Part shown: positions 3,102 to 47,322 of the stretch, piece after piece
How the letters are laid out: every line of letters starts with the position of its first letter
How positions within the stretch are numbered: position 1 is the stretch's first letter
DNA from: Ignavibacteria bacterium
GTDB taxonomy: Bacteria; Bacteroidota; Ignavibacteria; Ignavibacteriales; Ignavibacteriaceae
Direction: 5' to 3'
DNA: 48,290 nt
Assembly: GCA_030684555.1 (NCBI GenBank)
Contig: JAUXVN010000145.1
Coordinates: forward strand, 1-48,290
Program-made: the position numbers and the translations under genes
Notes under the pieces: generated by a model
What the model was told of the DNA's origin: nothing
The model's database searches: none
What the model saw: only the letters and a program-made list of their open reading frames with translations

Positions 3102-3596
3102 ATGCACGAAAATATATTTGATCATTACGAAAAAAAAGATAAAAGTTCTTTAATCCCTCTTTTGCAAGATGTCCAGGCAATTTATGGTTACCTTCCTGAA
3201 GACGCATTACAAGAGATTTCCGATTATGTCGGACTCCCGTTAAGCAGAGTTTATGGAGTGGCAACTTTTTACAATCAATTCAGATTAACCCCACTTGGTA
3301 AAAATGTAGTCAGAATTTGCCGCGGAACTGCTTGTCACGTTAAAAATTCAGCTAACATATTATACAGCGTTGAGACTGAACTTGGAATTCAAGCCGGACA
3401 AACTACCCGGGATAAATTATTCACTATTGAAACTGTAGCCTGTATTGGTGCATGTAGTATTGCACCGGTGATCAACATTAATGAAGAATATTATGGAAGG
3501 GTGACAACAAAAGAGATTCCTAAAATTATTAAAAAATATCGAAGTGAAGTTCAAAAAGAAACTGCGTCCGGGAAAGTTACTGAAGGTGTGAAATGA
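3102..3596 (+). CDS. hydC: NADH-dependent [FeFe] hydrogenase gamma subunit (HydC/NuoE-like)
   Basis: Thioredoxin-like [2Fe-2S] protein of 164 residues, the NuoE-type subunit of soluble [FeFe] hydrogenases. An N-terminal helical domain (LIPLLQDVQAIYGYLPEDAL) precedes the ferredoxin fold. Its four cluster ligands are visible as C73, C78, C114 and C118 in the pattern C-x4-C and CIGAC. In the Thermotoga-type trimer this subunit relays electrons near the NADH site. It is the first gene of hydC-hydB-hydA and overlaps hydB by four bases (ATGA), implying translational coupling. GAGG lies a few bases upstream of the ATG (TTGAGGAAAAAATG). It could be mistaken for complex I nuoE, but the following hydA settles the context. 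Confidence 0.92.
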   Translation: MHENIFDHYEKKDKSSLIPLLQDVQAIYGYLPEDALQEISDYVGLPLSRVYGVATFYNQFRLTPLGKNVVRICRGTACHVKNSANILYSVETELGIQAGQTTRDKLFTIETVACIGACSIAPVININEEYYGRVTTKEIPKIIKKYRSEVQKETASGKVTEGVK

Positions 3597-5569
3597 AATC
3601 GTTCTTAGAAATTAAATACAATATTGAGAACCACACTCCTGTTAATCCGAAAGAAGACTTTATTGCAAAATGTACTAATCCGAAATTAAATCCGGGACAA
3701 GAAAATGAAGTTGAGCAATTCAATAAAGAATTAAGATATGAAATTAATGATGTTCCGGTGATATTTATCGGGATGGATACAAGCGCACTCGCTTCAGGCG
3801 CCGGAAAAGTTAAAGCAGCTTTTGAAAAGGAGCTGAAAGAGAAGAACATCGAAGCGAAGATTGTCGCCACAGGTGGAATCGGCTTCGGAACTCTTGAACC
3901 ATTTGTTGATATAAAACTTCCGGGTGAAGATCGAGTAGTCTATTCTCAAATAAACGAAAAAGATGTTCCAAAGTTGGTAGAATCAGTCTTGATTAAAAAG
4001 GAAGTATTCACCAAAAAAGTTTTTGCAACTTATGGTAAAGGTACTGATACTCTTCCAAACATTAACGAAACCCCATTCTTTAAACCTCAATTGCGTGTCG
4101 TTTTGGAAAATTGTGGAATCATAAAACCGGAATCGATAGATGAATACATCGCTTGGGGAGGCTTCAAAGCTATTGATAAAGCACTTCGTTTATTAACCCC
4201 AGCAGAAGTTGTAAACGAAATATTAAAAAGTGGTCTTAGAGGACGGGGCGGTGGAGGTTTTCCTGCCGGGAAAAAATGGGATTTAGCACTAAAACAAAAA
4301 TCAGAAATAAAATATTTAGTCTGTAATGCTGATGAAGGTGATCCAGGTGCCTTTATGGATAGATCTGTTTTGGAAAGTGATCCATACAAATTAGTTGAAG
4401 GTATGATGATTGGTGCTTATGCAATTGGCGCATCGTACGGATATATTTATTGCCGTGCAGAATATCCGCTTGCTATTGAAAGGCTTCAAAAAACAATTGA
4501 TAAATGTAAAGAATATGGATTACTTGGAAAGAATATTCTTAACTCAGGATTCAATTTCGAATTAAAAATTAAAAAAGGAGCCGGAGCTTTTGTTTGCGGT
4601 GAAGAAACTGCTCTTCTCGCATCAATCGAAGGGAAACGCGGAATGCCTAAACCACGTCCGCCATATCCTTCAATTGCCGGATTATGGGGTAAACCAACTG
4701 TTATTAATAACGTTGAAACATTAGCAAATATTTCCTCTATAATTAATCGCGGTTCTGATTGGTTCTCTTCAATCGGTACTGAAAAAAGTAAAGGAACAAA
4801 AGTATTCGCTTTGAGCGGAAAAATTACTAACAGCGGATTAGTAGAAGTTCCAATGGGAATTACTCTCGAAGAAGTCGTCTTCAATATCGGCGGCGGAATT
4901 CCTGACAATAAAAAATTCAAAGCTGTGCAAATTGGCGGTCCCTCCGGCGGTTGCTTACCTGAGAGTGTTATTAAAACCCAGGTTGATTACGAGTCGCTTA
5001 AGGGAGTCGGCGCAATGATGGGTTCAGGTGGATTTGTTGTGATGGATGAAGATACTTGTATGGTTGATATTGCAAAATTTTTCTTAACATTTATTCAGAG
5101 TGAATCATGCGGTAAATGCGTTCCCTGCCGTGAAGGTACAAAACGTATGCTTGAAATCATTGAAAGAATTCCTAAAAGTTATAAGGGTACAACAAATAAA
5201 CTTGATGAACTTCAAAGGTTCAAAGGAATTATTTATCTTAATCGATTATCTAATGTTATCAGAGACACTTCTCTTTGCGGCTTAGGGCAATCGGCTCCTA
5301 ATCCGGTTTTATCAGGACTTCAATACTTCAAAGATGAATATGAAGAACATCTTTATGAAAGAAAATGCCGCGCCGGTGTCTGCAAAGATTTGTTGACATA
5401 TTCAATCGATAATACTATTTGCAGTGGTTGCGGAGTATGTGTAAGAAAATGTTCAACAGAAGCGATAATAGGAGAAAAAGGGCAGGCACATTATATAATT
5501 CAAGATAAATGTATTAAGTGCGGTATGTGTTTTGAAGCGTGCAGATTTGACGCTGTATCGGTAAATTAA
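3593..5569 (+). CDS. hydB: NADH-dependent [FeFe] hydrogenase beta subunit (HydB/NuoF-like)
   Basis: Flavoprotein of 658 residues that holds FMN and oxidises or reduces NAD(H). Domain order: an N-terminal thioredoxin-like [2Fe-2S] fold (about 52-135); the NuoF core with GRGGGGFPAG (217-226, FMN/NADH binding) and GAGAFVCGEETAL; an SLBB segment; the N3-type [4Fe-4S] site with C506, C509, C512 and C562; and a C-terminal 2x[4Fe-4S] ferredoxin (C610/613/616/620 and C640/643/646/650). Oddly, the N-terminal domain has lost its ligands. Where homologues carry C-x4-C and C-x3-C, this protein has G60 and A65, and G95 and G99, so it probably holds no cluster. The 4-base overlap with hydC and 24-base gap to hydA indicate one operon. 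Confidence 0.93.
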   Translation: MKSFLEIKYNIENHTPVNPKEDFIAKCTNPKLNPGQENEVEQFNKELRYEINDVPVIFIGMDTSALASGAGKVKAAFEKELKEKNIEAKIVATGGIGFGTLEPFVDIKLPGEDRVVYSQINEKDVPKLVESVLIKKEVFTKKVFATYGKGTDTLPNINETPFFKPQLRVVLENCGIIKPESIDEYIAWGGFKAIDKALRLLTPAEVVNEILKSGLRGRGGGGFPAGKKWDLALKQKSEIKYLVCNADEGDPGAFMDRSVLESDPYKLVEGMMIGAYAIGASYGYIYCRAEYPLAIERLQKTIDKCKEYGLLGKNILNSGFNFELKIKKGAGAFVCGEETALLASIEGKRGMPKPRPPYPSIAGLWGKPTVINNVETLANISSIINRGSDWFSSIGTEKSKGTKVFALSGKITNSGLVEVPMGITLEEVVFNIGGGIPDNKKFKAVQIGGPSGGCLPESVIKTQVDYESLKGVGAMMGSGGFVVMDEDTCMVDIAKFFLTFIQSESCGKCVPCREGTKRMLEIIERIPKSYKGTTNKLDELQRFKGIIYLNRLSNVIRDTSLCGLGQSAPNPVLSGLQYFKDEYEEHLYERKCRAGVCKDLLTYSIDNTICSGCGVCVRKCSTEAIIGEKGQAHYIIQDKCIKCGMCFEACRFDAVSVN

Positions 5570-5593
5570 TTTTGATTCTTTACGGAGATAATA

Positions 5594-7333
5594 ATGGTTG
5601 AGTTAACAATAAATAATATAAAAGTAAAAGCTGAAGAGGGAATGACAATTCTTGATGCAGCTAAATCTGTTGGTATCGCTGTGCCGACTTTATGTCACCT
5701 CAAGGATTTAATTCCTTCAGGTGCTTGTAGAATTTGTTCGGTTGAAGTTGAAGGGCAGAGAGGTCTAATTCCTTCATGTGCATATCCTATTTATGAAGGG
5801 ATGGTTGTAGAAACTAATTCCCCTCGTGTACGTGTTGCAAGAAAAACTATAGTTGAACTTTTAATTGAAAATCACCCTCAAGACTGCTTAATATGTGTTC
5901 GTAACGGTAACTGCGAGTTGCAGGATTTATCTGAAAAATACAGTATAAGAGAACACAGATATAAAGGAGAACATAAAGATCATGCTGTAGATATTTCATC
6001 AGCATCACTTGAAAGAGATCCAGCTAAATGTATTTTATGCGGAAGATGTGTAAGAGTATGCGGTGAAATACAAAAAGTCGGAGCTATCGATTTTATTAAT
6101 CGAGGATTTACGAGTATAGTCTCAACCCCATATAATAAAGGGCTGAATGTCAGCGATTGCATTCTCTGCGGACAATGTATCCTTGTATGTCCAACAGCTT
6201 CGCTAAGAGAAAAAAGTTCTCTAAAAACAGTTTCGGATGCACTTAATCATAGGAAAAAATATACTATAGCTCAAATAGCCCCGGCTGTTAGAGCTACTCT
6301 TGGTGAAGAATTCAATATGCCGCTTGGCACAGATGTTACCGGGAAATTAGTTACAGGTTTACGCCGATTAGGTTTCAAACGCGTTTTTGATACTAACTTT
6401 GCAGCAGACTTAACAATAATGGAAGAAGCACATGAATTGATCAAAAGAATTACAACAGGCGGAACATTACCTATGTTTACAAGCTGTTGCCCCGGTTGGG
6501 TAAAATACCTTGAACAAAATTATGGTGACTTACTCGAAAACTTATCAACTTGTAAATCACCCCATGAAATGGAAGGAGCTTTATTAAAAAGTTATTTTGC
6601 AAAGAAAATGGGAATTGATCCAAAAGATGTTTTCGTTGTTTCAATAATGCCATGTACAGTAAAAAAATATGAATCCGCACGACCTGAACTAAATGTTGAA
6701 TCTTTAACTGAAGTTGATGCTGTTTTAACAACGCGCGAATTGGTTAGATTTTTTAACATTGCCGGAATTGAGTTTGCTGATTTAGGTGAATCAGAATTTG
6801 ATAATCCCTTAGGTGAATCAACAGGTGCTGCAGCAATATTTGGAACAAGTGGTGGTGTGATGGAAGCGGCACTTAGAACCGCTTATTATCAATTAACCAA
6901 TACTCATTTAGAAAATGTCGATTTTGAACAAGTGAGAGGATTACAAGATATTAAGGAAAGTACAATCTCAATTAATGGATTAGACCTTAATATTGCAGTT
7001 GTAAATGGAATTGGAAATGCCGCACAAATTCTTGATGAAGTTCGTGAAGGTAAATCAAAATATCATTTTGTTGAAGTAATGGCATGCCCCGGTGGCTGTA
7101 TTAATGGCGGCGGGCAACCGATTCATCAGAAAATTGATAAAGTCATAGAACGTATGAAAGCACTTTATGAGATTGATAAAAAAATGTTGTTAAGAAGATC
7201 TTATGAGAACGAATCTATAAAGAAACTTTATGCTGAATTTCTCGGAGAACCGGGAAGTCATGTTAGTCATGAAATTCTTCATACTCATTACATAGATAGA
7301 CGTAAAACCCGGAAAATTGTAAATCCAAAATAA
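5594..7333 (+). CDS. hydA: [FeFe] hydrogenase catalytic subunit (HydA)
   Basis: Catalytic subunit of 579 residues that interconverts protons and H2 at the H-cluster. Domain order: N-terminal [2Fe-2S] (C34, C45, C48, C62); a His-ligated [4Fe-4S] site (H94, C98, C101, C107); a 2x[4Fe-4S] domain (C146-C156 and C189-C199); then the H-cluster domain. All three signatures are intact: L1 TSCCPGW (C298, with proton-relay C299), L2 MPCTVKKYE (C354), L3 MACPGGC (C498, C502). The small-subunit tail ends in the usual HTHY. It lacks the extra C-terminal [2Fe-2S] domain of Thermotoga HydA. With HydB and HydC it should form a cytoplasmic NAD-linked, possibly electron-bifurcating, hydrogenase. Maturases HydE/F/G are not in the window. 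GGAG lies just upstream of the ATG. Confidence 0.95.
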   Translation: MVELTINNIKVKAEEGMTILDAAKSVGIAVPTLCHLKDLIPSGACRICSVEVEGQRGLIPSCAYPIYEGMVVETNSPRVRVARKTIVELLIENHPQDCLICVRNGNCELQDLSEKYSIREHRYKGEHKDHAVDISSASLERDPAKCILCGRCVRVCGEIQKVGAIDFINRGFTSIVSTPYNKGLNVSDCILCGQCILVCPTASLREKSSLKTVSDALNHRKKYTIAQIAPAVRATLGEEFNMPLGTDVTGKLVTGLRRLGFKRVFDTNFAADLTIMEEAHELIKRITTGGTLPMFTSCCPGWVKYLEQNYGDLLENLSTCKSPHEMEGALLKSYFAKKMGIDPKDVFVVSIMPCTVKKYESARPELNVESLTEVDAVLTTRELVRFFNIAGIEFADLGESEFDNPLGESTGAAAIFGTSGGVMEAALRTAYYQLTNTHLENVDFEQVRGLQDIKESTISINGLDLNIAVVNGIGNAAQILDEVREGKSKYHFVEVMACPGGCINGGGQPIHQKIDKVIERMKALYEIDKKMLLRRSYENESIKKLYAEFLGEPGSHVSHEILHTHYIDRRKTRKIVNPK

Positions 7334-38882: not shown

Positions 38883-39509
38883 ATGAGTAATCCCAAAAAA
38901 AATAAACTTAAAATTGCTGTTACCGGTGGAATTGGTTCCGGTAAATCTACTTTCTGCGACTATTTATCTAACGAAGGTTTTTTCGTTCTGAAAGCAGATG
39001 ATTTAGCAAAAGAGTTATTGAATTCAGACAACATTATTAAATCTAAAGTTATTAGAGCCTTTGGAGTAGATGCTTACACCGGGAATTCTGTTAATAAGAT
39101 TTTTCTTGCAGAAAAAGTTTTTTCGAATCCACATTCAGTTCAAAAGATTAATGCAATTATTCATCCTCGTGTAATTGAGGAAACTGTTAAAGTCATCGAT
39201 GAACAACTAAAAACAAATGATCTTGTTTTTGTTGAAGCCGCGCTGATTTTTGAAGCTAAAATGGAAGATCTATTTGATTACATAATAGTCATAACTTCAG
39301 ATTTGGAAAAAAGAATTGAGAGAATTATAAAAAGAGATAATGTTACACGGGAAGAGGTTTTAAAAAGAATGGAAAACCAGTTATCCGAAGAAACGAAGCG
39401 AAAAAAAGCTGATTTTGTATTTATCAATAATGGTAATCAAGGGTTACTTAATCAAAATGCTAAATTTTTAATTTCTATTCTCCCTAATTTGAAAAAAAAA
39501 CATGACTAG
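38883..39509 (+). CDS. coaE: dephospho-CoA kinase
   Basis: 208-residue P-loop kinase that completes CoA synthesis. Walker A is VTGGIGSGKSTFC; the DDLAKELL segment and IHPRVIEE follow the family, as does VVFVEAALIFE-like LVFVEAALIFEAKMEDLFD (quoted in part). The lid contains RIIKRDNVTREEVLKRM. pheA begins eight bases before its stop, so the two are coupled. panC and coaX at 23.9-25.4 kb serve the same pathway. Confidence 0.94.
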   Translation: MSNPKKNKLKIAVTGGIGSGKSTFCDYLSNEGFFVLKADDLAKELLNSDNIIKSKVIRAFGVDAYTGNSVNKIFLAEKVFSNPHSVQKINAIIHPRVIEETVKVIDEQLKTNDLVFVEAALIFEAKMEDLFDYIIVITSDLEKRIERIIKRDNVTREEVLKRMENQLSEETKRKKADFVFINNGNQGLLNQNAKFLISILPNLKKKHD

Positions 39510-40335
39510 AGTTGCATTTCAAGGTGAACATGGTGCTTTTAGCGAAATTGCCGCGAAGAGATTTTTCGGTGATAAAACTTTGCTATTTCCGTCTGCTACA
39601 TTTAATGAAGTATTTTTGAAGATTAAAAAAGGGACAACAGATTTTGGAATTGTTCCGGTAGAAAATTCTTTATACGGAAGTATTTTCGAAACCTTCGATC
39701 TTCTACTCAAATATAAATTTTATATACATGCCGAGTTAAGATTAAAGATAAACCATCATTTATTAGCAAAAAGAAATCTAAATGTTAATAAAATCGAAAA
39801 AGTAATTTCGCACCCACAAGCACTTGGACAATGTTCAAATTTTTTAAGTTGCATAAAAAATGTTGAAATAACACCTTCATACGATACAGCCGGTTCAGCT
39901 AAATATTTGTTGGAGAACCCTGATGCAAAATGGGCAATTGTAGCAAGCGAACAAGCGGCAAAAGTATATAACTTGAAAGTGCTTAAAAAAAATATTCAAA
40001 ATAATCAGGAAAATTTTACACGTTTTCTTGTCATTTCAAAAAAGAAAAATCCGACAAAAATTTCTCTCCCAAAGTCATCGATATGTTTTGAATTAAAGAG
40101 TATGCCGGGGGCATTATTTAAAGCATTAAGTGTGTTTGCTTTAAGAGAGATAGATTTGTTAAGAATTGAATCAAGACCAATCCCGCAAAAACCTTTCCAA
40201 TACAGATTTTACTGTGATTTTAAAGGTAATCTAAAAGATGAATTAATTAAAAATGCGATAAAACATCTTAACGAAATATCACTTTCAATTTATAAGTTTG
40301 GAAGCTATGAAGAGGGGAAAACTTTTCTAAAATAA
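39502..40335 (+). CDS. pheA: prephenate dehydratase
   Basis: 277-residue enzyme converting prephenate to phenylpyruvate. The dehydratase domain begins VAFQGEHGAFSEIAA and contains VPVENSLYGSIFETFDLL, SHPQALGQC, the YDTAGSAKYL motif and the TRFLVISKK motif that carries the catalytic Thr. An ACT domain follows, with the phenylalanine-binding region FELKSMPGALFKALSVF and IESRPIPQKPFQYRFYCDF (in part). It lacks an attached chorismate mutase; such a domain is found instead on the MltG protein encoded 2 kb downstream. It overlaps coaE by eight bases. Confidence 0.94.
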   Translation: MTRVAFQGEHGAFSEIAAKRFFGDKTLLFPSATFNEVFLKIKKGTTDFGIVPVENSLYGSIFETFDLLLKYKFYIHAELRLKINHHLLAKRNLNVNKIEKVISHPQALGQCSNFLSCIKNVEITPSYDTAGSAKYLLENPDAKWAIVASEQAAKVYNLKVLKKNIQNNQENFTRFLVISKKKNPTKISLPKSSICFELKSMPGALFKALSVFALREIDLLRIESRPIPQKPFQYRFYCDFKGNLKDELIKNAIKHLNEISLSIYKFGSYEEGKTFLK

Positions 40336-40406: not shown

Positions 40407-41306
40407 GTGTCGTACATTAATAACCTTATTGTGACCTTTGTTCAACTACTCCCGAAATCTATAGTACGTGTTTTTTCAGGAAAATATATTGCCGGTGATA
40501 CTTTACAAGATGCTGTTTCACTAACTCTGGAACTTAATAAAAAAGGCATTTACACTACAATTGATGTTCTAGGTGAAGACATATCTACAAGAGATGAAGC
40601 CATTTATGCAAAAAATGAATGTTCAAAAATTCTTGATGCAATTAAGAAATTCAAACTTAAATCTAATCTTTCAATTAAACCAACACAAATGGGGTTGATG
40701 CTAGATTCAGATTTTTGTTATCAGCAATTATCAGAGCTGCTTGATAAAGCTGTTGCAATAGATAATTTTGTCCGTATAGATATGGAGGATTCCAACACTA
40801 CGGATAAGACTTTCGCTCTCTACAAAAGGCTGAGACAAAAGTACAATAATGTCGGAGTCGTTGTTCAATCATACTTAAAGCGGACATTACCCGATGTTAA
40901 ATCACTTTTACCGTTTAAAACAAATTTTCGTTTGTGCAAAGGAATTTATATTGAACCGGAAGAAATTGCATTTAAAAGTAAAAACGAGATAAGGAAAAAT
41001 TATCTCGATTCGCTCAGATTCATGCTTCAAAATGACCTGTATGTTGGAATAGCAACACATGATGAGTATCTTGTTAATGAATCCTACAAGATGATAAAAG
41101 AATTAAATGTTTCAGTAAACAAATTCGAATTCCAAATGTTACTTGGTGTTAGGGAAGATTTAAGAACCAAAATAAATGAGGATGGTTATAAAGTTAGAGT
41201 TTATGTTCCATTTGGAAAAGATTGGTATGCTTATTCGATTAGAAGATTAAAAGAAAATCCGCAAGTTGCTGGTCATATAGTTAAAAATCTATTTGGTCTC
41301 AAATAG
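40407..41306 (+). CDS. proline dehydrogenase (monofunctional)
   Basis: 299-residue FAD enzyme that oxidises proline to pyrroline-5-carboxylate. TIM-barrel motifs include GDTLQDAVSLTLELNKKG at the start, SIKPTQMGL, FVRIDMEDS, VQSYLKR, FRLCKGIYIEPEEIAF, ATHDEYLVN, FEFQMLLGVRED and the end RVYVPFGKDWYAYSIRRLKENP. This short form, without the aldehyde dehydrogenase module of PutA, is usual in Bacteroidota. The start is GTG with TTGGAG upstream. tsaD starts immediately after its stop. Confidence 0.92.
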   Translation: MSYINNLIVTFVQLLPKSIVRVFSGKYIAGDTLQDAVSLTLELNKKGIYTTIDVLGEDISTRDEAIYAKNECSKILDAIKKFKLKSNLSIKPTQMGLMLDSDFCYQQLSELLDKAVAIDNFVRIDMEDSNTTDKTFALYKRLRQKYNNVGVVVQSYLKRTLPDVKSLLPFKTNFRLCKGIYIEPEEIAFKSKNEIRKNYLDSLRFMLQNDLYVGIATHDEYLVNESYKMIKELNVSVNKFEFQMLLGVREDLRTKINEDGYKVRVYVPFGKDWYAYSIRRLKENPQVAGHIVKNLFGLK

Positions 41307-42317
41307 ATGAATGTAATTGGTATCGAAAGTTCCTGTGATGAAACATCTGTTGCAATAATATCTAATGGTGAATTAAAAACTAACTTAGTTTCGTCGCAGG
41401 ATTTTCATATTGAATATGGCGGTGTAGTTCCTGAACTATCAAGTCGCGCTCATCTGCAAAGAATCAATCCACTTGTTAAAGATGCTTTAATTAAATCTCA
41501 ACTCACTCTTGAAAATATTGATTTAATAACTGCAACCGCCGGACCCGGATTAATCGGAGCTTTGCTGGTTGGTTATACTTATGCTAAAGGATTGGCGTAT
41601 TCATTAAAAAAAACTTTTGTTCCGGTGAATCATATTGAGGGACATATTTTCTCCGGCTTTTTGATGGAAGACAAACCCGAATATCCGATTTTAACACTTG
41701 TTGTTTCAGGTGGGCATACATTACTACTTATTGCAGAAAGTCCGATTAAAATAAGGATATTGGGAACTACAATCGATGATGCCGCCGGTGAAGCTTTTGA
41801 TAAAGTAGCCAAGATGATTGGACTCGGTTATCCCGGTGGTCCAAAAATTCAATCCGTAGCATCAAAAGGAAATAAAGATGCGATTAATTTCCCCATAGCT
41901 GAATTAAAGCAGCAGTATCATTTTTCTTTTAGTGGATTGAAAACCGCTGTACTACGTTACATACAGGCTTTGACAAAAAATGGTGAATTAGGTGAGTCAC
42001 AGTTGAATGATATCGCCGCCTCGTTTCAGAATGCTGTTGTGAAAGCGTTAAGCAGACAGGTTAAAAAAGCCATACAAAATTTTCAAGTAAAATCGATTTC
42101 TTTAGTTGGTGGTGTTGCAGCTAATAAAGCAATTAGAGAAGAAATAATTAATATCGGAAACAAACACGGTCTTAAAGTAGTTATTCCAAATTATGAATTT
42201 TGCGGTGACAATGCAGCAATGATAGCACTTCGTGGTCAAATGTTATATGAATCTGGCGAGAGATTTTCACTTGATACCCCACCTTTCCCATCATTGAAAT
42301 CGAAATATTTTATTTAA
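41307..42317 (+). CDS. tsaD: tRNA threonylcarbamoyltransferase TsaD
   Basis: 336-residue catalytic ASKHA protein that transfers the threonylcarbamoyl group to A37 of tRNA. Opening IGIESSCDETSVAII; metal ligands in VNHIEGHI; LVVSGGHTLLL; GEAFDKVAKMIGLGYPGGP; VGGVAANKAIRE; and the terminal FCGDNAAMIA with the third ligand Asp. Together with tsaB and tsaE at 21.2-22.3 kb it completes the core t6A set apart from TsaC. It abuts the proline dehydrogenase gene. Confidence 0.96.
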   Translation: MNVIGIESSCDETSVAIISNGELKTNLVSSQDFHIEYGGVVPELSSRAHLQRINPLVKDALIKSQLTLENIDLITATAGPGLIGALLVGYTYAKGLAYSLKKTFVPVNHIEGHIFSGFLMEDKPEYPILTLVVSGGHTLLLIAESPIKIRILGTTIDDAAGEAFDKVAKMIGLGYPGGPKIQSVASKGNKDAINFPIAELKQQYHFSFSGLKTAVLRYIQALTKNGELGESQLNDIAASFQNAVVKALSRQVKKAIQNFQVKSISLVGGVAANKAIREEIINIGNKHGLKVVIPNYEFCGDNAAMIALRGQMLYESGERFSLDTPPFPSLKSKYFI

Positions 42318-42354: not shown

Positions 42355-43746
42355 ATGGAAAACATTTATAAGAAAATTGAAAAAGATCTTCATTCATTAT
42401 CAACAGATGAACGAAACGAAATTTTATCTCGATTAAGGAAAGAAGTTGATTTTGTTGATAAAGAACTTGTTAGACTTCTTAGTAAGAGAACTCTCCACTC
42501 GGTTTTAATCGGAAGAGTGAAAAGATCTATGGGACTTGCAACCTATTCACCGCAACGTGAAAAAGATGTAAGTAAAAAAGTTAGTTCATTTGCTGAAGAA
42601 CCACTTAGACCCGAGGCTGTGTTAAGAATCTATGAACGTATACTTGATGAATCGAGAGCAATTCAAAGAGAGGAAGCGAACAAAGGCAATTTGTATAAAA
42701 TATTTAATTCAAGAGATAGAATTCCATTTAATAAATTATTATCAAGAAAAGAATTCCTGATTGTATTTTTTCTGTTCATTTCATTAATGACCTGGTTTTA
42801 TTGGATATTCTTTTCACCTAATTATTACAGCGGAGAAGAACCAAAAGTTATTAAAATTACTAAGGGAATGTCTTTCGGACAAGTAACTGATACTTTAATT
42901 GCTAACGATGTTGTAAAAAGTAAAATTGCTTTTAAAATTGCGGGATTCATTTACGATGCTGAATCTAATATTAAGTCAGCTAGATATAAGATACCGAATG
43001 GCTTAAGTTATCTTGATCTTCTTGATATGCTGAAAGAAGGGAGAGGTGATCAACTTCGTGAAGTCAAAATTTATAATGGGATTTCGTTAAAAGGTCTTCA
43101 GAAGAAACTTAAAGCGGAAAATATAATTCTTAACAATAACATTGATAGTCTTCTAAAATCTCAAACAACTATCCGAACATTCGACCCAATAATCAAATCA
43201 CTTGAAGGCTACTTTCTCCCCGGATATTATCATTTCTATGAAAATTCAGAAACGTTAGAGATATTGCAAATAATGAATGATTCACTTAGAGTATTTATTT
43301 CTGATACATTGATTAGTACAATCAAACGAAAAGGTTTATCAATTCATAGCGTACTCACAATGGCATCTATTATTGAGGGTGAAACTAATTTAACGGAAGA
43401 AATGCCTACCATCTCAGGTGTTTATTATAATCGCTTAAAAATTGGGATGAGACTGCAAGCCGATCCAACACTTCAATATTTGCAAGAGGGGGGATGGAAA
43501 AGATTATTATATTCTGATCTCAAAATTGATAGTCCATATAATACTTACAAGTACATTGGATTGCCTCCCGGTCCAATTAATAATCCCGGGAAGCAAGCAA
43601 TTTTGGCTGCGATTTTCCCTCAAGATAATAACTATATATTTTTTGTGGCAAACGGTATGGGGGGGCATATGTTTGCAAGAAATTATTCTGAACATTTAAA
43701 AAACGTAAGTGAATATCGAAAATGGTTAAAGACTCAAAAAAAATAA
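42355..43746 (+). CDS. mltG: chorismate mutase domain fused to MltG-type endolytic transglycosylase
   Basis: 463-residue fusion. Residues about 20-105 are an AroQ-type chorismate mutase: LRKEVDFVDKELVRLLSKR, IGRVK, YSPQREKD, and IYERILDESRAIQ. By alignment to the E. coli enzyme, R28, R45, K56, R68, E69, S100 and Q104 match the active-site R11, R28, K39, R51, E52, S84 and Q88; the residue matching D48 is S65. A membrane helix (about 133-155) leads to the periplasmic MltG domain with catalytic E341 in MASIIEGETN, GVYYNRLKIGMRLQADPT and the DSPYNTYKYIGLPPGPI motif. MltG cuts nascent glycan strands. The mutase would face the cytoplasm. One uninterrupted frame; the next gene overlaps by 25 bases. 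Confidence 0.88.
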   Translation: MENIYKKIEKDLHSLSTDERNEILSRLRKEVDFVDKELVRLLSKRTLHSVLIGRVKRSMGLATYSPQREKDVSKKVSSFAEEPLRPEAVLRIYERILDESRAIQREEANKGNLYKIFNSRDRIPFNKLLSRKEFLIVFFLFISLMTWFYWIFFSPNYYSGEEPKVIKITKGMSFGQVTDTLIANDVVKSKIAFKIAGFIYDAESNIKSARYKIPNGLSYLDLLDMLKEGRGDQLREVKIYNGISLKGLQKKLKAENIILNNNIDSLLKSQTTIRTFDPIIKSLEGYFLPGYYHFYENSETLEILQIMNDSLRVFISDTLISTIKRKGLSIHSVLTMASIIEGETNLTEEMPTISGVYYNRLKIGMRLQADPTLQYLQEGGWKRLLYSDLKIDSPYNTYKYIGLPPGPINNPGKQAILAAIFPQDNNYIFFVANGMGGHMFARNYSEHLKNVSEYRKWLKTQKK

Positions 43747-45410
43747 TTATTCTAATCTTAACTTTGATTAGTATGATGTTAGTCGGTTGTGCAAATCAAT
43801 TACCGCCCGGAGGTGGAGAAATTGATTTAATTCCACCTGAAATTATTTATGTCCTTCCCGAATCAGGAACTACTAATTATAAAGAAGCATTCATAGAATT
43901 TGAATTTTCAGAATATGTAGATAAGAGAAGTTTTAAAGAAGCGGTTTTTATTTCACCTTCAATTGATGGAGATTTAGAAATTAACTGGAGTGGTACGGGA
44001 TGCAGAATCTATTTCCCTTCCAAGTTAAAAGAAAATATTACTTATACTATAACGATAGGGACAGATGTAGTCGATTTCAATAATAAAAATAGAATGGCGG
44101 AATCTTTTAATTTAGTTTTCTCGACCGGTGAAAAAATTGATTACCGTCGTATTGAAGGGAATGTATATTTTGAGAAACCTAATGGCATTATGCTGTTTGC
44201 CTATAAGATTGAAGATCACGATACAATAAATCCATCCAAAGTTAAACCTGATTATGTTTCACAATCAGGAGATTTAGGGCAATACTCAATAGCGGGTTTA
44301 GCAAAAGGAAGTTATAGGGTTTTTGCAGTTAAAGATGAATATAAAGATTTTCTTTTCCAGGCAGAACAAGATCTGGTGGGTGTTCCGACACAAGATGTTT
44401 ATTTATCAGAGGAAGATTCATTATTCTCAGGATTGAACTTCTACTTATCCAAAATTGATACGATAAAACCAAGAATACTCTCTGCACTAATGACTGACAG
44501 AAATCATATTCTATTGGGTTTTAGTGAAGAAATTGATCTTACAAAATTATCAAAAGAAAATTTTAAGTTTGTCGATTCAACAGAAAATCTTGAATACAAG
44601 TTGAGGCATATCTATAAGGGAAGAACCAAAGTTAACGAGGCTGTTGTCACATTATCAGACTCTTTACCTATTGAAAACAGAATTTATTTAATCGTAAATA
44701 ATTTTCACGATCTGATTGGAAATATTAGTAAATATGATTACACAGAAGTCACTGTTTATGATAAGTTAGACACAACATCAGTTATGCTAGTATCTACAAC
44801 ACCAGATCGTGGTAATGATCAAGTTGATTTTATCGATACGAAAATATTATTCTCTTTTGATGATGCATTTGATATTGACCCTGTAAGAAAAGGAATAACT
44901 TTCTCAGATACTAGCAAACAAAATTTACAATTTGACGTTGAGCGAATTGATGATGCTTCTTTTTATTTCATTCCCAAAAATCAGTTGAAACCACAAACTT
45001 TTTATAACATCAATATAAATTTTAACTATTTTAAAGATGTCGCAGGTAATTCGATTGATTCAATTTATCTCTATAATTTCAAAACATTTAATGGACAAAA
45101 TTTTACAGGATTATCAGGTTCGGTTATTTATGTAGAGCTTGACAAGAATCCAATTTTGGTTTTAGAGGATATTAAAGATAAAAATAACACGTATAGATTG
45201 AATCTTACCAAATCAAAATTTGAATTTGCAAGAGTTAAACCAGGTGAGTACAAAATTTCTTGTTTTTATGATGAGAATAAAGATGGAAAGTACTCTTATG
45301 GTTTTCCGTATGAGTTTATTCCGGCAGAGAAATTTTTTATTTCCACAGCAGACTTGAATTTGCCACCACGCTGGTCGGTAAGTGATTTTGAGTTTGTTAT
45401 TATAAGATAA
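43722..45410 (+). CDS. Ig-like domain lipoprotein (Big_5-type)
   Basis: 562-residue lipoprotein. A signal peptide (KIIILILTLISMML) ends in the lipobox LVGC. The first module, directly after it (LPPGGGEIDLIPPEIIYVLPESG, given in part, through YTITIGTDVVDFNNKNRM), is the SbsA/Big_5 Ig-like domain common in Bacteroidota; a related module recurs near residues 355-455 (VSTTPDRGNDQVDF through FKTFNG). The C terminus (GEYKISCFYDENKDGKYSYG) resembles a carboxypeptidase-regulatory-like fold. Substrate and partners are unknown; a cell-surface role is likely. It overlaps mltG by 25 bases, so co-expression is likely. No obvious terminator follows. Confidence 0.82.
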   Translation: MVKDSKKIIILILTLISMMLVGCANQLPPGGGEIDLIPPEIIYVLPESGTTNYKEAFIEFEFSEYVDKRSFKEAVFISPSIDGDLEINWSGTGCRIYFPSKLKENITYTITIGTDVVDFNNKNRMAESFNLVFSTGEKIDYRRIEGNVYFEKPNGIMLFAYKIEDHDTINPSKVKPDYVSQSGDLGQYSIAGLAKGSYRVFAVKDEYKDFLFQAEQDLVGVPTQDVYLSEEDSLFSGLNFYLSKIDTIKPRILSALMTDRNHILLGFSEEIDLTKLSKENFKFVDSTENLEYKLRHIYKGRTKVNEAVVTLSDSLPIENRIYLIVNNFHDLIGNISKYDYTEVTVYDKLDTTSVMLVSTTPDRGNDQVDFIDTKILFSFDDAFDIDPVRKGITFSDTSKQNLQFDVERIDDASFYFIPKNQLKPQTFYNININFNYFKDVAGNSIDSIYLYNFKTFNGQNFTGLSGSVIYVELDKNPILVLEDIKDKNNTYRLNLTKSKFEFARVKPGEYKISCFYDENKDGKYSYGFPYEFIPAEKFFISTADLNLPPRWSVSDFEFVIIR

Positions 45411-45867
45411 AAAGCTGTCGTATTGTAAACTAAACCCGTTAAATAAAATTCCAGAATTTTAGTTACTTATTAAATAATACTGCCAATCGTAAATAAAACC
45501 ACGTATTCTGAAACTCATCAATATTTATTTACTTCTAAAATCTCCACCTTTGCATTGGTGTTTATAGTTTAAATTGGAGAAGTCAATCATTACAGAAATG
45601 GGCTGACTGAGTCATTTGACTTGATACTCGTTATTGGACTTACTCTCACCGTAATATTTTATTCCACAAGTGCCAAAAACTAATAATGATGTTACACAAT
45701 AATATTTGCAAAGTTTCATTCAGAATTGAAGTCGGGTGGGGATTAACCTCACATTTTTCAACTTACGAGATTTTCAAGAGATAAAAAAAATTAGCTCACT
45801 GTTGACTTTTAAAAATAACCTTCATATAATTATACCTAAAATAATAATTATTATAATAATAATAAAA
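45411..45867 (+). other. intergenic region before the P-loop ATPase gene
   Basis: 457 bases without a supported gene. An open frame extends back to 45736, but its first 44 codons cover the promoter and an AAT-type triplet run (about 45838-45866) that would encode eight isoleucines in a row, so they are untranslated. The only clear element is the promoter at 45802-45830. Confidence 0.65.
45802..45830 (+). promoter_or_regulatory. consensus sigma70-type promoter
   Basis: TTGACT (45802-45807), a 17-base spacer and TATAAT (45825-45830) match the classical -35/-10 consensus at 11 of 12 positions. The transcript should begin near 45837, about 30 bases before the ATG at 45868, which supports that start. 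Confidence 0.65.
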
Positions 45868-47322
45868 ATGCAATTTTATCTTCGAGAAAAAGAACTAAAA
45901 CAATTAGTGAATGTAGTTGATGATAAACATCAAGAGAGTAAGTTCATTATAGTCTCCGGTAGTAGAAAAGTAGGCAAGACTACATTAGTAAATACTCTTG
46001 TGAAACAAAAGAATGGGATTTACATTACTATCAGTGCAAAAAGCAGTTCAATGCAGTTGAATGATATAAGTGATTACTTGCGTGAAATTAATCCCCCCGG
46101 AACCTTCATCCCGAGATTTGAAAATTGGAAGCATCTGTTTGAGTATTTTTTTATGCTTGCACATGAAAAGTCGGTTATTGTTGTTCTTGATGAATTTCAT
46201 AACCTTTGTAATATCGATTCGGATGTATTTATCGACTTTAGGACAGTCTGGGACATACATGCTTCTAAATCTAAGTTATGTTTAATCTCTGTTACTTATG
46301 ATCTCAACTTTATTAAAATGAACTTCCATAATGAAGATAGTCCTTTATATAGAATCATGAATTTTTCTTTACGGCTTACTCCATTCACACTGATTGATGT
46401 CATATCATTATTCAAATTGAATAAATCGAACATTCCGATAAATGAAATTATAGATCTATATATTGTATTTGGCGGGTATCCCAAATATTACCATTTGTTT
46501 GATTTATTTAATCTTTGGGATAAAAACCTCCAGGAGATTCTCAGAATTCTTGTTTTTCAAGCTTATGCTCCACTTGCAAATGAACTTAACGATATTATTA
46601 TCAATCTTTTCACACGAGAGAATAAGGTATATATTTCAGTTCTTCAATCAATAGCACTTAACAACCATACAATAACTCACATTGCAGATAGCATAAATAT
46701 TAAAGCAACTACCTTATCTAAATATCTTTTAGAACTAGAGAAAAAGAAACATATAATCAAAAGAAAACAGCCGATTAATGTTTCATATGTGGAGAATTCC
46801 AAATTCGGTATGTATTACATAAGTAGTTATTTCGAAAACTTTTGGTTCAGGTTTATTCAACCGGATATAATAAGTTTCGAAAATGGACAGTATGATAGAA
46901 TGCTTCAAAATATCAGTCAAAACTTTGATGAGTATCGTAAACAAAGGATACCATTAGTAATTAGAGAATTAATGCAATATTCCAAGGAGATTGAAAACCT
47001 AAATGCTATTTTCCCTTATGATGTAACATCTGTGGGCTCTTTATGGAATCGTAAAAAGATGGTAGACATTGTTGCGATTAACGACGAAAAGAAAAAACTT
47101 CTTCTTGGATCTGTTTATACCGGAAATAGCACCATGAAAGTTGAAACAATCAATGAACTTTTTTCGACTATGACTGAATTTGAAAAACAATTTGTTGGTT
47201 ATGAAATTAGAAAAGTATTATTCCATAACTCAACTATTAGTCTTGATTTGTGGAACCAATTAAAAGATAAAAACCAAAACATTTTTTCTTACTCAAAATT
47301 ATTAAAGCAAATTTATGATTAG
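45868..47322 (+). CDS. archaeal-type P-loop ATPase with DUF234-like C terminus
   Basis: 484-residue ATPase of the family that pairs an archaeal-type AAA/STAND module (PF01637-like) with DUF234. Walker A is GSRKVGKTT (G31-T39) and Walker B is VVLDEFHNL (D108, E109). A winged-helix segment follows (about residues 265-315, HITHIADSINIKATTLSKYL). The C-terminal VDIVAINDEKKKLLLG matches the nuclease-like fold of DUF234, but where relatives have a GExK-type motif this one has GSVY, so the nuclease-like site looks dead. The function of the family is unknown. It stands alone, between core genes and an IS junction, and may have been acquired. No Shine-Dalgarno is visible before the ATG. Confidence 0.75.
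   Translation: MQFYLREKELKQLVNVVDDKHQESKFIIVSGSRKVGKTTLVNTLVKQKNGIYITISAKSSSMQLNDISDYLREINPPGTFIPRFENWKHLFEYFFMLAHEKSVIVVLDEFHNLCNIDSDVFIDFRTVWDIHASKSKLCLISVTYDLNFIKMNFHNEDSPLYRIMNFSLRLTPFTLIDVISLFKLNKSNIPINEIIDLYIVFGGYPKYYHLFDLFNLWDKNLQEILRILVFQAYAPLANELNDIIINLFTRENKVYISVLQSIALNNHTITHIADSINIKATTLSKYLLELEKKKHIIKRKQPINVSYVENSKFGMYYISSYFENFWFRFIQPDIISFENGQYDRMLQNISQNFDEYRKQRIPLVIRELMQYSKEIENLNAIFPYDVTSVGSLWNRKKMVDIVAINDEKKKLLLGSVYTGNSTMKVETINELFSTMTEFEKQFVGYEIRKVLFHNSTISLDLWNQLKDKNQNIFSYSKLLKQIYD

Follow-up and report, generated by a model that had tools for sequence, protein, structure and literature searches.

A chorismate mutase domain joined through a membrane helix to an MltG transglycosylase in Ignavibacteria

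We describe a single open reading frame in which a complete AroQ chorismate mutase (CM) domain is followed by a transmembrane helix and an MltG endolytic transglycosylase domain. The frame lies in the window, by which we mean the whole analysed stretch of 48,290 nucleotides from an Ignavibacteria bacterium (contig JAUXVN010000145.1). The gene quite probably encodes a bifunctional membrane protein, the product of merged neighbours, in which an active mutase supplies prephenate for PheA and TyrA on one side of the membrane and MltG works on the other. What carries this reading, all of it visible in sequence, is one frame with both domains complete, the active-site residues, the lack of any other recognisable CM in the genome, the fused relatives, and a conserved gene pair. 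Under this explanation, the cytoplasmic N-terminal domain would convert chorismate to prephenate, which would be used by TyrA and by the PheA encoded 2.0 kb upstream among closely packed genes; the single helix would place the transglycosylase on the periplasmic side; and the fusion would have come about by loss of a stop codon or a merging of frames between neighbouring aroQ and mltG genes.

Layout, active site and fold of the fused protein

The fused gene occupies positions 42355..43746 of the + strand, from an ATG start through 463 amino acids and a stop codon. The CM domain (residues 27-105, 42433..42669), assigned by Pfam, active site and model fold, is preceded by an N-terminal part ahead of the profile match (residues 1-26, 42355..42432) that is delimited by the model and an alignment. 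Then come a basic linker, predicted to be cytoplasmic (residues 106-133, 42670..42753), a transmembrane helix identified by hydrophobicity (residues 134-153, 42754..42813), and the Pfam-assigned MltG/YceG domain (residues 166-452, 42850..43710), all on the + strand. The CM_2 match (PF01817) scores 65.9 bits against a cut-off of 27 (E 3.9e-18) and spans the entire Pfam profile, positions 1-80 of 80; the YceG match (PF02618) scores 259.5 bits against 32.4 (E 4.9e-77). Amongst the NCBIfam models, the protein passes the MltG model TIGR00247 (223.1, cut-off 103.4) and misses the cut-offs of the CM models, the best being TIGR01807 with 46.6 against 69.55; its scores for TIGR01801, TIGR01805 and the other listed CM models are also under theirs. 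A preliminary description of this DNA, made from its letters, had read the frame as an AroQ-like domain, a membrane helix and MltG, and Pfam together with the one hydrophobic stretch agree. It had also put the mutase at the inner face of the membrane. The net charge is +4 in the 20 residues preceding the helix and +1 in the 20 following it, a pattern that fits a predicted topology with the CM half in the cytoplasm and the MltG half in the periplasm.

On the MltG side, E343 aligns with E218 of E. coli MltG and does not vary among 15 aligned fused sequences; E218Q is used as the inactive form of the E. coli enzyme (PMC8135044, which we cite from excerpts, as we do PMC12329711, PMC10520331 and PMC7481392). 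On the CM side, the structure model has an N-terminal helix at residues 2-14 that precedes the CM core, and K7, L12, L15 and S16 are invariant across 15 aligned fused sequences, the window's included (alignment A1).

The seven positions of the E. coli mutase active site that had been reported as matched are recovered in our alignment: R28, R45, K56, R68, E69, S100 and Q104 of the window protein correspond to R11, R28, K39, R51, E52, S84 and Q88 of E. coli PheA. The acidic residue is absent, as also reported, at the place of E. coli Asp48, which is occupied by S65. A loss of catalytic residues in relatives was looked for, and what we find is conservation: all 69 CMs adjacent to mltG, and 37 of the 38 fused ones, retain R11, R28, K39, R51 and E52. 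The sole fused exception on these core residues is genome G258, with a CM shortened to about helix 1. The remaining positions vary more in the 38 fused CMs, with Ser (20) or Asn (17) at the D48 place, Ser (36) at the S84 place, and Gln (22) or Glu (15) at the Q88 place. Ser at the Asp48 position is thus typical of the clade. We do not treat Asp48 as defining, because, in the excerpted text of PMC12329711, 57% of AroQ sequences have Asp at this place, the contact is made by the backbone amide of the residue, and the salt bridge that it forms with Arg11' is termed not imperative in PchB. Catalytic decay through S65 was considered and ruled out, given Ser or Asn in 37/38 fused CMs and the five core residues kept. 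Judged by its residues, the domain would be a catalytically active mutase.

The full-length structure model has a mean pLDDT of 71.4 and a pTM of 0.49. Because its CM part is poor (as are residues 369-409), we used a separate CM model made with more sequences: residues 1-112 as a single chain, with 24 aligned sequences and a mean pLDDT of 89.4. A structural match to AroQ is present in this model, both to 2d8e (Z 11.0, rmsd 1.0-1.2, the value of 1.2 being over 87 residues, TM 0.89 on the target) and to 1ecm (1ecm_A; Z 10.8, rmsd 1.4). Residues 1-112 are accordingly predicted, in the model, to adopt the three-helix AroQ fold.

The only recognisable chorismate mutase of the genome and its neighbours

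A profile search of the genome, which is 99.97% complete, finds one PF01817 match, in the fused gene, and no match to the AroH class (PF07736), so that the free-standing mutase we looked for is not found in either class. The genome's frames for chorismate synthase (AroC, L178) and TyrA (L177) include no CM, and TyrA is on a contig other than the window's. Because this is the sole CM by two classes, PheA and TyrA, on the routes to phenylalanine and tyrosine, need prephenate from the fused domain, unless the genome holds an unrecognised CM. In the window's genus, the sister species G337 (86% complete) has a TyrA match and no CM or PDT match at all.

The likely user of the product is pheA (39502..40335, +), 2.0 kb upstream on the same strand. 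The preliminary description took it to have no mutase of its own, and Pfam assigns it prephenate dehydratase (PDT) and ACT domains only. The suggestion that the fused domain may supply its prephenate is supported by the sole CM, the kept residues and the AroQ fold of the model. From coaE to the fused gene, five genes run consecutively, all on the + strand and with no gap longer than 71 nt: coaE (38883..39509, +), which overlaps the start of pheA by 8 nt, pheA, a proline dehydrogenase gene (40407..41306, +), tsaD (41307..42317, +), which ends 37 nt upstream of the fused gene, and the fused gene. From this arrangement we infer co-expression of the fused gene with pheA. Downstream, a frame with Big_5 and DUF2141 matches (43722..45410, +), when read from its first ATG, would share 25 nt with the fused gene. 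Elsewhere in the window we observe an AAA ATPase with a DUF234 C-terminus (ATPase_2 type) at 45736-47322, downstream of the fused gene, and genes with Complex1_51K and iron-only hydrogenase domains at 3593-7333, probably an NADH-linked hydrogenase.

The spacing of pheA and the CM recurs in the family. Amongst 27 family genomes with a stand-alone PDT and a fused or mltG-linked CM (matched manually, in a few cases from frame length only), 25 have the two on one contig, 2.3-2.8 kb apart with a median of 2.4 kb; the other two, G303 and G316, have them on separate contigs. G334, in which the PDT is beside a second CM, is omitted from this pairing.

Distribution of the aroQ-mltG pair and history of the fusion

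Across 294 genomes of the class, CM_2 is found in 161, PDT in 142 and MltG in 286. CM and PDT occur together in 138 genomes, CM only in 23, PDT only in 4, and neither in 129, in tallies uncorrected for relatedness; CM presence follows PDT, not MltG. In three of the PDT-only genomes (G219, G284, G293) there is no MltG match, and in the fourth (G112) the contig opens with the MltG match, from base 4 on; this is what a CM lying in an unassembled mltG stretch would produce. A CM linked to mltG occurs in at least 74 class genomes of 7 families, 26 of them fused and 48 adjacent among the matches listed. PDT is present in 69 of these 74, again among the matches listed, the five without it being G045, G157, G245, G272 and G290.

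We classified 206 distinct CM-bearing frames with our own profiles, among the matches listed (16 of the 161 CM genomes fall outside this classification), and checked 9 representatives, 3 of them fused, against Pfam. In 69 frames the CM adjoins mltG and in 38 it is fused to MltG. The remaining frames carry PDT and DAHPS (48), DAHPS (18), AroC (17), PDT (8), or a CM alone or at a contig edge (8). In 43 of the 48 frames with PDT and DAHPS the CM comes first. One example of that type is L080:2979-5051 (+), with 47 others in families f2, f1 and f25; read from the N-terminus, its 691 amino acids hold CM, PDT, an ACT-like domain and DAHP synthase. Three class genomes (G125, G130, G165) carry such a frame plus an mltG-linked CM. 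The 17 distinct frames with AroC and a C-terminal CM, from families f13, f14, f20 and f31, join an enzyme to the next enzyme of the pathway; they include the Pfam-checked L161:1958-3316 (+) and L084.

The search for MltG proteins with an N-terminal PF01817 domain, which had been proposed as a check, gave the 38 distinct fused frames, with a linker that can be aligned in 15 fused sequences. The named fused relatives come from metagenome-assembled genomes (MAGs) recorded as Ignavibacteria, Ignavibacteriales, Ignavibacteriaceae, Bacteroidetes or Bacteroidota. In 13 fused loci (L032-L044), identity to the window is 68-77% in the CM and 46-53% in MltG; in L046, L048 and L056 the CM is also the better conserved, by a smaller margin. 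When the two domains are compared in 18 near-relative pairs, the CM is the better conserved in 11 and MltG in 6, four of these in genus g9, with a tie in the remaining pair.

A possible mltG start codon lies inside the aroQ frame in 43 of 69 adjacent pairs, and a start giving a 4-nt overlap exists in 15 of 69, with starts counted mechanically in both cases. A quick tree built from 107 MltG domains shows at least 13 changes between the fused and the separate state; many of its branches are weak, some long branches come together, and the tree does not tell gains from losses. Within genus g46 there are 8 fused and 4 separate cases. Elsewhere in the phylum, in other families, a CM gene is directly upstream of mltG in 39 of 40 chosen loci, and fusion is found in none of the 40; L292 is the locus without a CM gene upstream of mltG. 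These loci were hand-picked among the matches listed, not sampled at random, and scored for pairing, not for active-site residues. Other classes have frames of 450-545 aa that were taken as candidate fusions and dropped when their DNA showed separate genes, so we claim the fusion within the window's class only.

The pair is not peculiar to one genus: it is conserved, and would have switched between separate and fused repeatedly. The CM-MltG pairing looks old and real. Since there are 38 fused frames, and aroQ lies directly upstream of mltG in many other genomes, the most likely history is that an old aroQ-mltG pair merged on more than one occasion.

Several genomes do not fit a simple metabolic reading. 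An mltG-linked CM occurs without any PF00800 or PF02153 match in G157 (fused, 99% complete; L220), G329 (99%; L217), G330 (92%; L218) and G339 (95% complete, 8% contaminated; L223), and in the less complete G332 and G340. Chorismate synthase is found in G157, G329, G330, G332 and G340, with no match in G339. The linked CMs of these six genomes are more diverged, scoring 49-82 bits with our own profile, and their active-site residues remain; the other 101 linked CMs have a median of 124 bits, with 88 at 110 or more. In the three pairs among G329, G330 and G332, dN/dS is 0.11-0.27 for the CM and 0.06-0.13 for MltG, with synonymous changes near saturation. Because G157, G329, G330 and G339 keep the CM and show no PheA or TyrA match, it may serve another use there; these four may also reflect recent losses or a prephenate user that goes unrecognised. 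Conversely, in genus g10 six genomes have AroC and no CM, PDT or TyrA match, and G176, the only one of them scanned for MltG, has MltG; MltG can therefore do without a CM. Eight genomes keep both a second CM and an mltG-linked one (G125, G130, G165, G295, G299, G331, G334, G335), the linked CMs being partly diverged, at 60-116 bits, with their core residues intact. The shortened CM of G258 is at locus L229 (G258:C57), where roughly the first CM helix is all that is left in front of MltG, and a stand-alone PDT is encoded in the same genome; this remnant may be a relic or a dimerisation stub.

Alternative readings, and comparison with known systems

Two alternatives can be set aside with little doubt. 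That a missed stop or an assembly error merged two genes might be suspected from near relatives with separate genes, but it is contradicted, and ruled out as an artefact, by the 38 distinct fused frames in different assemblies and the alignable linker; with 38 of 206 CM frames fused to MltG, we take the fusion as real. An isochorismate-pyruvate lyase of the PchB type, whose structures have the common fold (Z 9.5-9.6 against the CM model), is hardly credible for this domain. In the excerpts of PMC12329711, PchB has Val where mutases carry the Glu that contacts the 4-OH, and here Glu69 is kept, on which we rule out the lyase identity; a lyase would also leave PheA and TyrA with no other recognisable CM to serve them. 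Somewhat less remote, and still very improbable, is a frame with two products, in which an internal start yields a free MltG so that CM and MltG act apart. The linker does hold one in-frame TTG, at aa 113, just ahead of its basic stretch, which could start a separate MltG and so counts against the bifunctional protein, and separate genes are the commoner arrangement amongst linked CMs (69/107). The linker has no ATG, however, and no clear ribosome site before the TTG, and the frame is open through linker and transmembrane helix in all 38 fused frames.

Two further alternatives carry somewhat more weight. The CM could owe its retention chiefly to MltG, serving as an obligate dimerisation or regulatory domain whose catalysis is secondary or in places lost. 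In E. coli the AroQ domain consists of two intertwined protomers (PMC10520331, from excerpts), so a fused CM would be expected to pair two MltG units; the MltG of S. pneumoniae likewise bears an additional cytoplasmic domain (PMC8135044, from excerpts); the six genomes with no PDT or TyrA match keep the CM, with the dN/dS values given above; and in G258 a CM reduced to about its first helix is still fused to MltG. We nevertheless consider this unlikely: the five catalytic residues are near-invariant, and a mere clamp would not need them; MltG persists in G176, one of the six g10 genomes with no CM match; and 69 of the 107 linked CMs are separate proteins. The other possibility is a functional coupling, in which CM activity or chorismate occupancy informs or tunes peptidoglycan cutting, or a membrane-bound CM steers chorismate between amino acids and quinones made at the membrane. 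It would account for a pair that extends beyond the class (the 39 of 40 chosen loci) and for the many changes of state on the MltG tree, weak as its branches are, and E. coli mltG follows a gene of the chorismate branch, pabC. Yet conserved gene order and gene fusion are also seen where no biochemical coupling exists, and other class genomes carry their CM on AroC, DAHPS or PDT, so we give coupling a small chance. A sensor that is also an enzyme, with chorismate or prephenate binding, or dimerisation, in the CM or its neighbouring partner setting the state of MltG across the membrane, strikes us as doubtful to a similar degree. If true, it would link the state of the chorismate pool to the place where glycan strands are made or to their length, and the spread of the pair over several classes of the phylum, its repeated fusion, its survival in genomes with no PheA or TyrA match, and the pabC-mltG order of E. 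coli would be traces of a chorismate-MltG link. Against the bifunctional protein that supplies prephenate stand the six genomes that keep a CM without PF00800 or PF02153, the 5 of 74 linked class genomes without PDT, G337 without a CM or PDT match, and the six near-relative pairs in which the CM is the less conserved half; it remains in our judgement the probable explanation.

Other associations of mltG with chorismate metabolism may be placed on record. In E. coli K-12, pabC lies directly before mltG (L250:3301-5135). The solved MltG relative of the window protein, 2r1f, is still named a predicted aminodeoxychorismate lyase. In actinobacteria mltG is linked to aroE, a link for which we found nothing in the open-access literature.

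The finding matters in several ways. The AroQ mutase gains a partner outside metabolism, and an enzyme at a branch point of primary metabolism can be the genome's only recognisable copy while fixed to a cell-wall enzyme. The separate, overlapping, fused, truncated and pathway-less cases form a natural series on which pairing and repeated fusion can be tested as signs of functional coupling. For annotation, a gene labelled MltG alone may cause a genome to be wrongly reported as lacking chorismate mutase.

Among the open-access papers listed for the CM-MltG pairing, none describes it, and neither MltG nor transglycosylases appear in the main text of a paper on frequent metabolic fusions (PMC4921024); the excerpts of PMC7481392 name MltG and, separately, TyrA as protease substrates. 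As a partner fused to a known enzyme domain MltG is new, and a broad pairing of the two genes lies behind the fusion, which domain databases may list; a coupling of the mutase to the cell-wall enzyme may exist.

Amongst known systems, PheA (CM-PDT), TyrA (CM-PDH) and DAHPS-CM have the AroQ domain and active-site layout in common with the window protein, and in PheA the CM is likewise N-terminal. The closest solved matches of the window CM are DAHPS-linked CM domains and free CMs. The bifunctional AroQ proteins have pathway enzymes as partners, however, and here the partner is a cell-wall enzyme across the membrane. Fusions of CM to pathway enzymes are common, and exported fusions of CM to cyclohexadienyl dehydratase are rare, found in nine species where they coexist with a cytoplasmic CM (excerpts of PMC10520331). 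The latter resemble our case as an AroQ CM in an unusual envelope fusion, but their partner is the next enzyme of the pathway, whereas the window CM is predicted to be cytoplasmic and is the only one found. From the other end, the MltG/YceG proteins of E. coli and B. subtilis have, like the window protein, a full YceG domain, the catalytic Glu and one N-terminal transmembrane helix; unlike them, the window MltG has a folded enzyme domain on its predicted cytoplasmic side. S. pneumoniae MltG comes nearest to this arrangement in having an added cytoplasmic domain, of unknown function in the excerpts of PMC8135044; in the window protein, the added domain is a chorismate mutase.
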